Shown here piece after piece: positions 6,489 to 12,734 of a stretch of DNA of 13,509 nt. This stretch comes from a bacterium (GTDB lineage Bacteria > Blakebacterota > Blakebacteria > Blakebacterales > Blakebacteraceae): NCBI GenBank assembly GCA_025774205.1, contig JALGWK010000045.1, positions 1-13,509 on the forward strand. Reading direction: 5' to 3'. The notes beneath the pieces were generated by a model. The model saw nothing but the letters and a program-made list of their open reading frames with translations, did no database searches and had not been told where the DNA came from. The translations under genes were made by a program, and so were the position numbers. Each line of letters opens with the position of its first letter. Within the stretch, counting starts at the first letter, position 1.

Positions 6489-7928
6489 CTACCCGACGAT
6501 CACTCCCTCAAGGTCGAAGTCGATGGTGCCGACGATCTCGGCGCGGACGATCTCTCCCGGGTGGTATTCCGCCTCCGGGCCGTCATTCTCCGACAGCTCA
6601 AGATAGACCCCCTGGTCCACTTCAGGCGCGTCACCACGCGTGCGTCCCAGCCAGGTGAAGGGGGCCAGGTCCTCGAGGGATTCATCCAGCATCACTTCCA
6701 CAACTTCGCCTACGAGAGCATCGTTGATCTCCTGCATGATCCCGCGCTGGGCCTCGAGTATCTCCGCTGCCCGACGCTCCTTCTCCTCTTCCGGGACCGT
6801 ATCGGTAAGGTCGAAGGCCCGGGTGCCCTCTTCGGGGGAGTAGGTGAAGACGCCGAGCCGCTCGAACCTGATCTCACGGATGAGGTCGAGTGTCTCCCTG
6901 TGCTCCCGCTCACCTTCACCGGGGAAGCCGGTGATGATGCTCGTACGCAGCGTGATGCCCGGTACCCGTTCCCGGATCGAGTGGATCAGGTCGGTCATTG
7001 CGGTTCGGCCCATCCCCCGCCGCATCTCCCGCAGGATGCTGTCTGAACCGCTCTGGACCGGCAGGTCGAGATAGGGCACGATCGTGGATGAGGCGCTCAT
7101 CACCTCCAGGAGAGCATCGGTGACGCGGGTGGGGTAGGCATACATCAACCGCAGCCATTCGAGCCCCTCGACCTCGCTCTCCAGGCGCTGCAGCAGGGCA
7201 GCCACGTCGACCCCGTCTCCTCGGCCTCCACCCCGGCTGCCGCCTCCTCCCCCGGAATCCCGGTCGAGATCGTAGCCATAGAGAGTGGTGTCCTGCGCGA
7301 TCACGATGAGTTCTTTCACCCCGGAGCGGGCCAGGGCGGCGGCCTCTGCAACCAGGTCGTCGGGCGGGACAGAGACCGTGTCTCCCCGGATAAGCGGTAT
7401 GGCGCAGAAGGAGCAGGCGTTGCCGCACCCTTCAGCGATCTTCAGGTAGGCGAAATGGGCGGGCGTGGTCAGAACCCGAGGGATATCAGGGATCCCTTCG
7501 GGAAGCGCCGGGACATCCAGATCGGGTGCCGGCGATCCCGGTTCCCGGTCGGCGCTCCCGAGACCGAGTTGGATCGCCGCTTCACGGCTGACCGTCCTGA
7601 CCTCCTCCGGATCGAGGAGTCCGAGGAAACGGTCGACCTCGGGGAGTTCGGCCTCGAGATCGTCGCGATATCGGACAGCGAGGCATCCACCCACGACAAG
7701 CCAGCGGAGTCGCCCGGTCTCTTTCAGCTCCGCGATCTGCAGGATCTCGTCGATCGACTCCTCCCGGGCGGCCTCGATGAAACCGCAGGTGTTGATGATC
7801 ACCACCTCGGCGGCGGTTGGATCGACGGTAAGGGAGAAGCCGTCGGCGACGAGCGCGCCCATGGCTTTCTCGGAATCGACGCTGTTCTTGGCGCAGCCGA
7901 GAGTAACGAAGGCGATGGTGGGGTTCAC
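6489..7928 (-). CDS. rimO: Ribosomal protein S12 methylthiotransferase RimO
   Basis: Radical-SAM enzyme with two Fe-S clusters that adds a methylthio group to the conserved aspartate of ribosomal protein S12. The 479 residues contain an N-terminal UPF0004/MTTase domain with cluster cysteines C12 (LGCAKNSVDSE, the RimO signature), C48 (INTCGF) and C82 (VGGCLA); a radical-SAM core with C168, C172 and C175 (EGCGNACSFCAIP); FERLGVFTYSPEEGT (355-369), typical of RimO rather than MiaB; and a C-terminal TRAM domain from about 405. GTG 7928 overlaps the cdaA stop as GTGA, which supports it as the start. Two oddities: a glycine-rich insert at about 222-240 (see repeat at 7209-7265) and RGDTVSVPPDD after the cluster where many homologues have a basic RGxxRSRP-like stretch. 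It is the last gene of the operon. Confidence 0.94.
   Translation of the reverse strand: MNPTIAFVTLGCAKNSVDSEKAMGALVADGFSLTVDPTAAEVVIINTCGFIEAAREESIDEILQIAELKETGRLRWLVVGGCLAVRYRDDLEAELPEVDRFLGLLDPEEVRTVSREAAIQLGLGSADREPGSPAPDLDVPALPEGIPDIPRVLTTPAHFAYLKIAEGCGNACSFCAIPLIRGDTVSVPPDDLVAEAAALARSGVKELIVIAQDTTLYGYDLDRDSGGGGGSRGGGRGDGVDVAALLQRLESEVEGLEWLRLMYAYPTRVTDALLEVMSASSTIVPYLDLPVQSGSDSILREMRRGMGRTAMTDLIHSIRERVPGITLRTSIITGFPGEGEREHRETLDLIREIRFERLGVFTYSPEEGTRAFDLTDTVPEEEKERRAAEILEAQRGIMQEINDALVGEVVEVMLDESLEDLAPFTWLGRTRGDAPEVDQGVYLELSENDGPEAEYHPGEIVRAEIVGTIDFDLEGVIVG
7209..7265 (-). repeat. Glycine-rich low-complexity insert within rimO
   Basis: Codons for residues 222-240 encode mostly Gly with Ser, Arg and Asp, between the LYGYDLD strand end and the VAALLQRLE helix of the radical-SAM core. 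RimO proteins I know have a short loop here. The insert keeps the reading frame and probably forms a flexible surface loop. Confidence 0.6.
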
Positions 7929-8728
7929 GCAGTCGCTGTCAGCGGCATCACCGGTTCGGCCGAGCCGCGTGGTCCGAAGAGCGAGGAGAGATGCTGGCGG
8001 AGGGCGGCAGCGTCGATGTTCCGTGTCAGGCGGCCACCGACCGCGAGGCTGATCATGCTGGTCTCTTCACTCACTACCACCACGACGGCGTCCGATTCCT
8101 CGGTGACACCCATCGCCGCCCGGTGGCGAGTGCCGAGTCCCGGTTCGATCCGGCTGCTCTGGCTCAACGGCAGCAGGCAGGAAGCAGCTTCGATCACCCC
8201 GTCCTGGATGATTACCGCTCCATCGTGGAGGGGCGTGTTGGGGAAGAAGATGGTTTCGAGCAGGGAGGCGCTCAGGTCCGCTTCGAGTTTCACGCCGGTC
8301 TCCACGATCGCCTTCAGGCCGACCTCCCTGGTGAGCACCACCAGGGCGCCGATGCCCTTCCGGCTCAGGTGCTCGATCGCGGTGCAGACCTCGTCCACAA
8401 CCTGAGGTTCCTCCACCTTGACGAAATACCTCACGAGCCGGCTCTGCCCGAGGATGATCAGGATCCGACGCAGTTCGGGCTGGAAGAGGATGACAAAGGC
8501 GATCAGCCAGATGGCCCCCACGTTTTCGATCAGGTAGGAGAGGGTGCCGAGCTGCAGCAGCTGGGCGAAGATCGAAAGCATGAAGAGCAGCAGCAGCCCC
8601 ATCACCATCGGCACTGCTCTGGTACCACGGAGGATGTGCATCAGCCGGTAGAAGATGTACGCCACCAGGATGACGTCCAGTATGTCCCACAGGGTGATCG
8701 TCATGAAGCTGATGCGGAACAGTGTCAT
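7925..8728 (-). CDS. cdaA: Diadenylate cyclase CdaA (DisA_N/DAC domain, membrane bound)
   Basis: Makes cyclic di-AMP from two ATP molecules at the cytoplasmic membrane; c-di-AMP commonly controls potassium and osmolyte balance and wall stress. The 267 residues contain three hydrophobic segments (about 13-30, 38-58 and 65-83) followed by a DAC domain. The catalytic motifs are intact: PLHDGAVII (166-174, DGA) and GTRHRAAMG (199-207, RHR). A GGAGG lies ten bases before ATG 8728. That ATG overlaps the last codons of the folP C-terminal fragment as ATGA, and the stop overlaps rimO as GTGA. folP directly upstream of cdaA is a recurring arrangement in Bacteroidetes and relatives. No ybbR-like regulator gene follows here, unlike the cdaA-cdaR pair of Firmicutes. 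If folP translation really ends early, coupling into cdaA would be lost and expression would rely on its own GGAGG. Confidence 0.95.
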   Translation of the reverse strand: MTLFRISFMTITLWDILDVILVAYIFYRLMHILRGTRAVPMVMGLLLLFMLSIFAQLLQLGTLSYLIENVGAIWLIAFVILFQPELRRILIILGQSRLVRYFVKVEEPQVVDEVCTAIEHLSRKGIGALVVLTREVGLKAIVETGVKLEADLSASLLETIFFPNTPLHDGAVIIQDGVIEAASCLLPLSQSSRIEPGLGTRHRAAMGVTEESDAVVVVVSEETSMISLAVGGRLTRNIDAAALRQHLSSLFGPRGSAEPVMPLTATA

Positions 8729-8928
8729 GATACCCGGTCCTCCACGATCGCTCCCCGGATCTCATCGAGGGTGTCGAGCGCGAGCCTCATCTCGGCCACG
8801 TCGTGCACCCGCATGATCTGCGCGCCCTGCCAGGCGAGGATCGCGCAGGCTGAGGCCGTACCCATCAGCCGCTCTTCCGCCGGCCGGTCGGCCGGGCCGG
8901 AGATGTGCCGCTTCCGGGACGGACCCAC
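8725..8928 (-). pseudogene. folP: C-terminal fragment of dihydropteroate synthase, out of frame
   Basis: This frame continues folP after the break near 8928. It encodes VGPSRKRHISG (the SRK block that binds the pterin/pABA site in FolP) and then ERLMGTASACAILAWQGAQIMRVHDVAEM, the standard FolP C-terminus. Its stop overlaps the cdaA start as ATGA, like other junctions of this operon, which shows it is the true gene end. GTG 8928 begins the open stretch but has no ribosome-binding site of its own and is probably not a real start. The fragment cannot be an active enzyme alone. Confidence 0.85.
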
Positions 8929-9899
8929 CGGTAGATTTCGAAGTTGTGCTGACGACGCTTGCCGAAGCCCAGGCCGGGATCGATCGCGATCCGGTCGGGA
9001 GCGACCCCCTGCTCGAGCGCGGCGTCGGCGCGTTCCGCGAGGAAGGCATGGATCTCACCCATCAGGTCGTTGTAGCACGGATCCTCCTGCATGGAGGCGC
9101 TGAGCCCCTGACGATGCATCAGGACGAGACCGGCCTCTCGATCAGCAGCAAGGGAGATGATCGCGGGGTCGTCGAGGCCGGCGGAGATGTCGTTGATGAT
9201 CACAGCCCCGGCATCGAGCGCTGCCGCCGCCACCTCCGCACTGGAGGTATCGATCGAGACGGGGAGCCCGGTGCGCTCGATCGCTTCGACGATCGCTCCC
9301 GTCACCCGGTCGATCTCCACCTGTACCGGGACCGGATCAGCGCCCGGACGGGTCGATTCCCCGCCGATGTCGATAAGGTCGGCACCCCCCTCGACTGCCC
9401 TGTCGAGGGCACTCCTGATCTCATCGGTCGTCTCCGAGCGACTGCCGGCCCAGAAGGAGTCGGGAGTGGTGTTGATGACCGCCATCAGTCGCGTTCCCTC
9501 ACGCAGGGAGATCTCCCTTCCGGCGGACCGCCAGAAGTCAGGCCCCTCGATCCCGACGCCCCGCCGGAGCGCCAGGAGGGCTTCAGCCGCCCCGCTTCCG
9601 GATTCCCCGAGCCAGGCGAGGAGCCGGTCGGTCCGGCCACAGGCGATCATCCCGCGACCCTCCTCACCGATCGCTCCGACTCCGGGTCGAGGCAGGGTAT
9701 CCCGGAGATTCGCGGCCACTCCTTCCGGCAGTAGAATGGCCACGATCCCCTCCGTCGTCTCTTCCGGCCGGCCGCTCCGGGGAGGCGGTCCGAGCGGACC
9801 GCACCATTCCCGGTCGGAACCCACCCGGTCGAGTTCAAGACGGGCTTCTCTGTCAGAGGAGGGCCAGAGGAGTCGGGGTCGGGCCTCGGGGGCCGTCAA
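8865..9899 (-). CDS. folP: Dihydropteroate synthase, frameshifted and truncated at its C-terminus
   Basis: FolP joins pABA to 6-hydroxymethyl-dihydropterin diphosphate in folate synthesis. The frame starts at TTG 9899, overlapping the folE stop as TTGA. Residues 1-115 form an N-terminal extension resembling the extra domain of some bacterial FolP proteins (VAAN at 61-64). The TIM-barrel blocks follow: LMAVINTTPDSF (138-149), DIGGESTRPGA (177-187), SIDTSS (215-220), VIINDIS (233-239), LMHRQG (260-265), MQEDP (270-274) and IDPGLGFGK (306-314). After HNFEIYR (318-324) the reading frame leaves the family sequence and ends at 8865 with about 20 unrelated residues. The rest of FolP continues in another frame at 8928-8725. 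Comparison with E. coli FolP suggests about 13 residues are also missing at the junction. It is either a real inactivating deletion or an assembly error. Confidence 0.9.
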   Translation of the reverse strand: MTAPEARPRLLWPSSDREARLELDRVGSDREWCGPLGPPPRSGRPEETTEGIVAILLPEGVAANLRDTLPRPGVGAIGEEGRGMIACGRTDRLLAWLGESGSGAAEALLALRRGVGIEGPDFWRSAGREISLREGTRLMAVINTTPDSFWAGSRSETTDEIRSALDRAVEGGADLIDIGGESTRPGADPVPVQVEIDRVTGAIVEAIERTGLPVSIDTSSAEVAAAALDAGAVIINDISAGLDDPAIISLAADREAGLVLMHRQGLSASMQEDPCYNDLMGEIHAFLAERADAALEQGVAPDRIAIDPGLGFGKRRQHNFEIYRWVRPGSGTSPARPTGRRKSG

Positions 9900-10459
9900 T
9901 GCTTCCCGCCGTAGATGAGGTTGAGGGCTTCGGCGCGGGTCGCTTCCCGCTCGAAACCGCCCCGCATGGCCGAAGTCACGATCCTCGTGCCGGGCTTCTG
10001 CACCCCCCGCATGGTCATGCAGAGGTGTTCCGCCTCAATGAGCACCAGGGCTCCGAGCGGCTTGAGTGAACTCACCAGCGCCTCGCATACCTCGCTGGTG
10101 AGCCGTTCCTGGATCTGGGGTCGGCGGGCGGCGGTCTCGAGCATCCGGACCAGGTTGGAGAGTCCGGTGATCCTGTTCTCACTGGGGATATAGGCCAGGT
10201 GCGCCTGGCCGAAGAAGGGCAGCAGGTGATGTTCACAGACCGAATAGAACGGGATGTCCCTCACGATGATCATCTCATCGTGGTTTTCGACGCCGTATAC
10301 CCGCACTTCCTCCACGAGTGAGCGTCCCATACCGGAGAAGATCTCCTCGAACGCTTCAGCCACCCGCTCGGGGGTTCGGACAAGACCTTCCCGCTCGGGA
10401 TCCTCTCCAATCCCTTCCAGGATCAGCCTGACACCGGCAATGATCTTCTCGCGGTCCAC
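9896..10459 (-). CDS. folE: GTP cyclohydrolase I (FolE)
   Basis: Converts GTP to 7,8-dihydroneopterin triphosphate, the entry step of tetrahydrofolate synthesis; a toroidal homodecamer in characterised relatives. The 187-aa length is typical. Zinc ligands are present: C75 and H78 in FYSVCEHHLLPFFG, and C147 in AEHLCMTMRGVQKPGT; H77 and H145 are the other conserved active-site histidines. RITGLSN and RRPQIQERLT (113-122) are also family blocks. Start GTG 10459 has a strong AAGGAG (10471-10466) six bases upstream, which overlaps the ftsH stop codon. Its own stop overlaps the folP TTG start. Downstream folP in the same operon supports a folate role. Confidence 0.97.
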   Translation of the reverse strand: MDREKIIAGVRLILEGIGEDPEREGLVRTPERVAEAFEEIFSGMGRSLVEEVRVYGVENHDEMIIVRDIPFYSVCEHHLLPFFGQAHLAYIPSENRITGLSNLVRMLETAARRPQIQERLTSEVCEALVSSLKPLGALVLIEAEHLCMTMRGVQKPGTRIVTSAMRGGFEREATRAEALNLIYGGKH

Positions 10460-10469
10460 CCCGATCTCC

Positions 10470-12734
10470 TTATAGTTTCAGGTATCCGTCCTCCCGATCG
10501 GGATCGGATCCTTCCGGTTCATCGGCGGTTTCTCCTGATTCTGCCGACTCTCCGCTCTCCACCTCCCCGGCCCCGTCGAGCGCGTCGACCTGCTCCGTTC
10601 CGTCGGCCCCGTCGAGCGCGTCGACCTGCTCCGTTCCGTCGGCTCCGTCGGCGACAGCAGCGTCACCGTTCCCTTCCAGCTCGGCTGCCACGGATTCGAT
10701 ATCGGGCAGATCTTCCTTCTCGGCCACCATCATCAGCGGTTCCGGCTCTCCCGGCTCACGGTGCAGGGGCTTGCCGGTCATGGCCAGATCGATCTCCGAT
10801 CCGGACAGGATCTCGTATTCGAGGAGGGTTTCGGCCAGGTTCTTCAGGCTCTCGACATTATCCTTGAGCATCTGGTCGACCTCTTTCTCACAGGCCTTGA
10901 TGATCAACTTGACCTCGTCATCGATCAACTCGGCCGTCTCCTCCGAGCGATCCTTGGGCCGCGAGATGGAGCGTCCAAGGAAGATTTCCTCGTTCTCCTC
11001 ACCGTAATATAGTGGTCCAAGCTTGTCGCTCATCCCCCACTCCTGAACCATCTTGCGGGCCAGCGCGGTGGCCCGCTGGATGTCATTGCCTGCACCAGTG
11101 GTCACCTCGTCGAAGATGAGCAGTTCGGCCGACCGGCCGGCCATCAGTTGCTTGATGATGCCGAGCAGGTAGTCTCTGGAGTGGATGTGCCGTTCATCGA
11201 TGGGCAGGTAGTGGGTGAGGCCGAGCGCCCTGCCACGCGGAATGATCGTGACCTTGTGGACCGGGTCGGAACCGGGGACGAGTTTCCCGACCAGGGCATG
11301 GGCCGCCTCGTGGTAGGCGATCCTCCGCTTCTCCTCGTCGGCGATGACCATGCTCCGCCGCTCGGCGCCCATCATCACCTTGTCCTTGGCCTCCTCCATG
11401 TCGGCCATCGTGACACTCTCACGGTCGAACCGGGCTGCCAGCAGGGCCGCTTCGTTGACGAGGTTGGCCAGGTCGGCGCCGGAAAGTCCCGGGGTAGTCT
11501 TGGCGACGATTTTCATGTCCACTTCGTTCGCGAGCGGGATATGCCGCGTATGGACCCGCAGGATTCCCTCCCGCCCCTTCACGTCGGGCAGGTCTACTAT
11601 GACATGGCGGTCGAACCGTCCCGGTCTCAGGAGCGCCGGATCGAGGACGTCGGGCCGGTTGGTAGCCGAGATCAGGATGACCCCCTCGTTCGACTCGAAG
11701 CCATCCATCTCCACCAGGAGTTGGTTCAGAGTTTGTTCCCGTTCGTCGTGTCCGCCGCCCAGGCCCGCGCCGCGGTGTCGACCGACCGCGTCGAGTTCAT
11801 CGATGAAGATGATGCACGGCGCGTTGTTCTTGCCCTGCTCGAAGAGGTCCCGGACCCGACTGGCCCCGACGCCCACGAACATCTCGACGAATTCCGAACC
11901 GGCGAGACTGTAGAAGGGAGCGTCAGCCTCGCCGGCCACTGCCCTGGCCAGCAGGGTCTTGCCGGTGCCGGGAGCTCCGGTCAGAAGGACCCCCTTGGGG
12001 ATCTTGCCACCCAGTTTCTGGAACTTGGCGGGATCCTTGAGGAAGTCAATGACCTCCTGCAGTTCCTGTTTCGCCTCGTCGGCGCCTGCCACGTCGTTGA
12101 AGGTAACCTTCACCTTGCCGCCGGTAAGCAGTTTCGCCTTGCTCTTCCCGAACGAGAAGATACCCCGCTGCCCGCCCTGCATCTGGCGCATCATGAATAT
12201 CCAGAGGAAGATGATTACGAAGAACGGCAGCATGTAGATGAGGGCGCCGCCCCATGCCCCCTGCTGCTTGAAGGAGTATGAGACACCCCTCTCCGACCAG
12301 TAGTCGAGCATCTCCTTGTCGATGATGCCGTCGAGGATGATGAGACGGAACTCGTGGTAAACCCGGGTCGTCCCGCTGACCTGCCTCGTGATCTCGGTCC
12401 GGAGCTTCCCGCTGACCTCGGTGTTGTTGAGCACCAGGATCTCCTCGACCTCGCCCCGATCGATAAGCTCCTCGAACTCGTTGAACGACTCCAGTTCGAC
12501 CTGTCGGCCCGTCTGCGAGCCGAGCAGCTGGTAGCCGACTATCCCGACCAGGATCAGCATGGCCCAGAAGGCGAGGGTTCGGCTGGCGTTCCCGAACTTG
12601 TTGGCCGGGGGCTGCGGTCCGCCGTCACCACCCGGCCGGTCCTTCCGGTCACCCGGTTTGGGTGGGGTTGGGATCCGGCCTTTCCTGCCATCCTGTCCTG
12701 AAGAATCTCTACTCATCATCCACCTCTGCTTCAT
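10470..12734 (-). CDS. ftsH: ATP-dependent zinc metalloprotease FtsH
   Basis: Membrane-anchored hexameric AAA+ protease that degrades misfolded membrane proteins and short-lived regulators. Layout of the 754 residues: Pro/Gly/Lys-rich cytoplasmic N-terminus (1-50), membrane segments at about 52-71 and 163-183 flanking a periplasmic domain, AAA+ module with Walker A GAPGTGKT (253-260), Walker [12 protein letters not shown] (308-318) and second region of homology RPGRFDR (370-376), then peptidase domain with HEAAH (475-479) and third zinc ligand D551. The C-terminus carries an extra acidic tail of about 100 residues (656-754) containing two identical 12-residue repeats; common FtsH proteins are about 610-650 aa. 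ATG 12734 overlaps the hpt stop as ATGA. ATG 12716 (start MSRDSS) has a better-spaced GAGG and is an alternative. hpt-ftsH adjacency is widely conserved. Confidence 0.97.
10570..10641 (-). repeat. Perfect 36-bp tandem duplication in the ftsH tail
   Basis: Units 10570-10605 and 10606-10641 are identical over all 36 bases, and an 8/9 match to the start of a third unit follows. In frame they encode [12 protein letters not shown] twice (FtsH residues 697-720). Perfect identity implies a recent duplication or continuing slippage. Confidence 0.9.

Follow-up and report, generated by a model that had tools for sequence, protein, structure and literature searches.

A 40-bp, frame-breaking gap in folP of a fragmented metagenome-assembled genome is very probably a local assembly error

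Introduction

Bacterial FolP proteins are recognized by the Pfam family Pterin_bind (PF00809) and by the NCBIfam dihydropteroate synthase (DHPS) model TIGR01496 (cut-off 162.6 bits), and the conserved spacing of 20–22 residues between an HN or QN pair and the SRK block serves as a further criterion for DHPS. FolP can also carry an extension, which in H. pylori is a reported flavin-dependent reductase. Here we describe the folP gene in a window of 13,509 bp that is an entire contig of a metagenome-assembled genome (MAG, hereafter G000) made up of 527 contigs, 85.85% complete and 4.84% contaminated. Compared with bacterial FolP, the window encodes two pieces that both match the family collinearly by PF00809 and TIGR01496, but profile positions 188–201 are absent and the frame changes between the pieces. 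An earlier note, made from the sequence of the window, had described this as a frameshift combined with a loss of about 13 codons, and both the profiles and the alignment to intact relatives bear that description out.

Results

The two parts of folP and the genes on either side of them are arranged as follows.

9896..10459, minus strand: folE, GTP cyclohydrolase I, intact (PF01227, 225 bits)
8868..9899, minus strand: N-terminal part of folP, with a TTG start at 9899 and a 4-bp overlap with the folE stop
8927..8930, minus strand: folP junction, CTACC^GGTGGG, with 40 bp missing compared with the reference loci L006 and L007 and a 2-bp GG ambiguity
8725..8928, minus strand: C-terminal part of folP, VGPSRK... 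to the stop, with a 4-bp overlap with the cdaA start
7925..8728, minus strand: cdaA, diadenylate cyclase, intact (PF02457, PF19293)

The N-terminal frame runs from the TTG start at 9899 to 8865 on the minus strand and ends ...FGKRRQHNFEIYR followed by WVRPGSGTSPARPTGRRKSG and the stop: past HNFEIYR, it loses register and, after 20 residues, reaches a TGA at 8865–8867. The C-terminal part, VGPSRKRHISGPADRPAEERLMG..., lies in a different frame (8928–8725, minus strand). Pterin_bind is matched at positions 1–187 in the first frame and 202–244 in the second, and TIGR01496 at positions 2–187 (197.7 bits) and 202–256 (42.5 bits), respectively. A full-length match to TIGR01496 above the cut-off in a single frame was not obtained, with ∼14 profile positions (188–201) absent. 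The flanking genes had been described as intact, which agrees with the Pfam matches of folE and cdaA and with the open frame of rimO; the remaining genes on the contig are open as well. Separately, we note an in-frame, exact tandem repeat of 36 bp at 10568–10643 of the window, where it falls within the acidic tail at the C terminus of FtsH; the FtsH tail of a relative from the same genus (G001) likewise has an internal repeat (DDTPEAPEAE).

To size the gap, we used as references the folP loci of G001 (L006/L035) and of G003, a member of the same family (L007). Each encodes an intact FolP of 404 aa, and both orthologs fully match TIGR01496 (268 bits in G001 and 282 bits in G003). Over its 324 N-terminal residues, the FolP of the window shares 75% identity with that of G001; identity with that of G003 is 54%. 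Further, the gene order folE-folP-cdaA-rimO is common to the window, G001, and G003, and the window folP is thus the ortholog. DNA alignment with L006 and L007 placed the gap between 8930 and 8929 and gave its size as exactly 40 bp (13 codons plus 1 base), with a position that can be moved by a 2-bp microhomology (GG). The earlier note had allowed a deletion of either 37 or 40 bp, of which 40 is right and 37 is not; its residue counts (∼19 in E. coli FolP against ∼6 here) were correct within one, as the relatives have 18 residues between HN and VGPSRK and the window has 5. Between HN/QN and SRK, the window has 8 residues compared with 20–22 in 71 pattern-matched homologues (21 in 67 of them), a shortening far beyond chance. 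The same short junction in the nearest relatives would have spoken for an inherited change. However, the gap is absent from both relatives aligned, whose FolP is intact, and an inherited change in folP was therefore rejected.

The missing stretch, which reads RMAEFHSIGYPLL in G001, gives an ungapped alignment with DHPS chains of solved structure, e.g. 7l6p, and we take it to belong to the helix and strand that precede the SRK loop in the known TIM-barrel fold. Activity is therefore not expected of either piece of FolP or of a frameshifted product. This bears on the reading that folP is functionally split or recoded, with programmed frameshifting or two subunits yielding a shortened active enzyme. 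Although both pieces are open as far as the junction, 13 codons are gone between HN and SRK, where the 71 homologues never have fewer than 20 residues, neither relative has a split gene, and, judging from the DHPS fold, frameshifting would not restore the lost helix and strand. We therefore regard such an enzyme as exceedingly improbable, and the earlier view that a programmed frameshift could not rescue folP holds.

Lesions of the same type occur in indispensable genes of G000. In dnaE (C208, ∼1306; L266, ∼1304), 31 bp are missing at a 1-bp microhomology and the frame is shifted, with 80% DNA identity to the dnaE of G001 on either side of the gap. The loss takes out VSMPDIDIDFC, including the PDIDIDF active-site motif, a segment that holds the catalytic aspartates of DnaE. 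The MAG encodes just one further DnaE-like protein, which has 32% identity and is not the ortholog. Similarly, the only ValS-like gene of G000 (C340, 5336–5342) is in two frames, with ∼34 profile positions (79–112) missing as read from the coordinates; the pieces have no space between them, and the counterpart in G001 is a single frame of 899 residues. To our knowledge, bacteria cannot live without valS or without a replicative dnaE. For a real pseudogene in folP, indispensable genes would be expected to be free of such lesions, which is not so in G000. Because no living cell could carry these lesions, local misassembly is by far the best explanation for the gap in folP. In this MAG, the assembly process, or else reads that stem from dead or chimeric DNA, therefore generates lesions of the folP type with notable frequency.

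For the background of such lesions, we sampled 80 contigs of G000 (∼458 kb readable) together with 526 kb of G001, and used tblastn to compare the long ORFs. Frame splits were flagged in 6 of the 40 G000 genes that were set against G001 proteins and in 0 of 36 in the reverse comparison, a break rate derived from a sample and from a single relative at ∼75–80% identity; some of the six flags (L211 and parts of L191), which are near gene starts, may be real differences. Other flags are clean cases: the gene ppdK (pyruvate phosphate dikinase) is broken by an exact tandem duplication of 22 bp (L134, 375–418, on C10), an ORF 3.5 kb beyond it on the same contig has lost 71 bp, and an L191 ORF contains an exact tandem duplication of 53 bp. 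Overall, a scan for exact tandem duplications whose unit length is not a multiple of three gave seven in the 458 kb of G000 and four in the 526 kb of G001; a control of 491 kb from other folP loci contained one out-of-frame exact tandem duplication, which was not a clean two-copy one. The clean out-of-frame duplications in G000 range from 22 to 104 bp, and across several of them one domain continues in the second frame, e.g. PEP-utilizers_C and DUF1846. In G001, as identified by NCBIfam/Pfam, rplP (ribosomal protein L16) carries an exact out-of-frame tandem duplication of 35 bp (L231, 16320–16389) and the GTPase gene der one of 76 bp (L230, 3814–3965), and here too the protein domain carries on in another frame past the duplication. 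Both out-of-frame breaks and exact micro-duplications are thus raised in rate across the G000 assembly. The clean gaps that shift the frame and the two-copy micro-duplications, which are many and in part fall in indispensable genes, resemble local misassembly of short-read metagenomes. The name of G001, Meg19_1012_Bin_119, points to the Meg19 cores from the Guaymas Basin, for which Illumina reads were assembled with IDBA-UD (PMC10290634). A literature search for this exact type of error returned nothing useful.

A search for a second folP, which the earlier note had called for, found none: with PF00809 over the whole 86%-complete MAG, DHPS appeared only as the two pieces in the window, and the other matches were to a methyltetrahydrofolate methyltransferase-like protein (C496) that adjoins a MetF-like gene and to MetH (C30). 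The incompleteness of the MAG leaves room for an intact second folP in the missing ∼14% of the genome, with the window copy as a decayed duplicate, but the window copy is the ortholog by its gene order, no relative has two DHPS matches to the query, and we consider this arrangement very improbable. G000 also contains folK and folB in addition to the intact folE and, with these genes kept, nothing else points to decay of folate synthesis. An ECF-transporter S-component was not matched in G000 by PF12822, a narrow test with one family only.

These results also bear on whether the 40-bp deletion is real, i.e. whether FolP is gone from the sampled lineage, or from a sub-population whose reads prevailed in the assembly, with folate imported or partners relied on instead. 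The gap is present in the assembly, a second DHPS was not found in the MAG, and the 2-bp microhomology suits slippage during replication no less than a misjoin. However, folE, folB, and folK are kept with no further decay seen, the narrow search did not reveal an S-component, folP is intact in both relatives that have it, and the lesions of the same kind that dnaE and the ValS-like gene carry in this MAG cannot be real. A real deletion is thus unlikely. Its consequence, a lineage that retains folE, folB, folK, and the N-terminal domain of FolP but has lost DHPS activity and needs folate from outside, is quite unlikely.

In the FolP family of the window, the DHPS domain is preceded by ∼135 residues without a match in Pfam (9485–9899 of the window, minus strand; 1501–1910 of L006; also in L007). 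In many unrelated bacteria, FolP has an extension of like length with a common NILKQ-ML--GGDAA motif; the family of the window is without this motif. DHFR was not found with PF00186 in G000–G004, and H. pylori is listed without FolA (PMC1971073). The idea that the FolP extension replaces a missing DHFR was set aside as a lead only, as genomes with a long FolP were not clearly poorer in PF00186 than those with a short FolP when stop-to-stop frames were counted by eye.

Discussion

Overall, we conclude that the 40-bp gap in folP is very probably a local assembly error and not a property of the organism, with the assembler as its presumed cause. What was observed directly is how large the gap is and where it lies, that the relatives are free of it, and that many equal lesions occur elsewhere in the MAG, some of them in indispensable genes. 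A wrong join inside folP, made in a fragmented metagenome-assembled genome, would produce such a gap, and in the organism itself FolP is most likely an ordinary, intact protein of 404 aa, that is, a DHPS with an N-terminal extension, encoded in the folE-folP-cdaA-rimO run as in the relatives. The statement that folP is broken is thus unsupported for the organism itself, given that dnaE and the ValS-like gene are damaged in the same way and that folP is intact in the relatives. The rival that the earlier note had named, a local deletion in the assembly, is favored by the lesions and micro-duplications across the same MAG.

The out-of-frame gaps and duplications in dnaE, the ValS-like gene, rplP, and der make pseudogene calls unsafe in both assemblies, and we caution that no gene loss or pseudogene should be called from G000 or G001 without the reads. 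If true, a loss of folP would mean folate auxotrophy in an uncultured lineage, which would be of modest interest.
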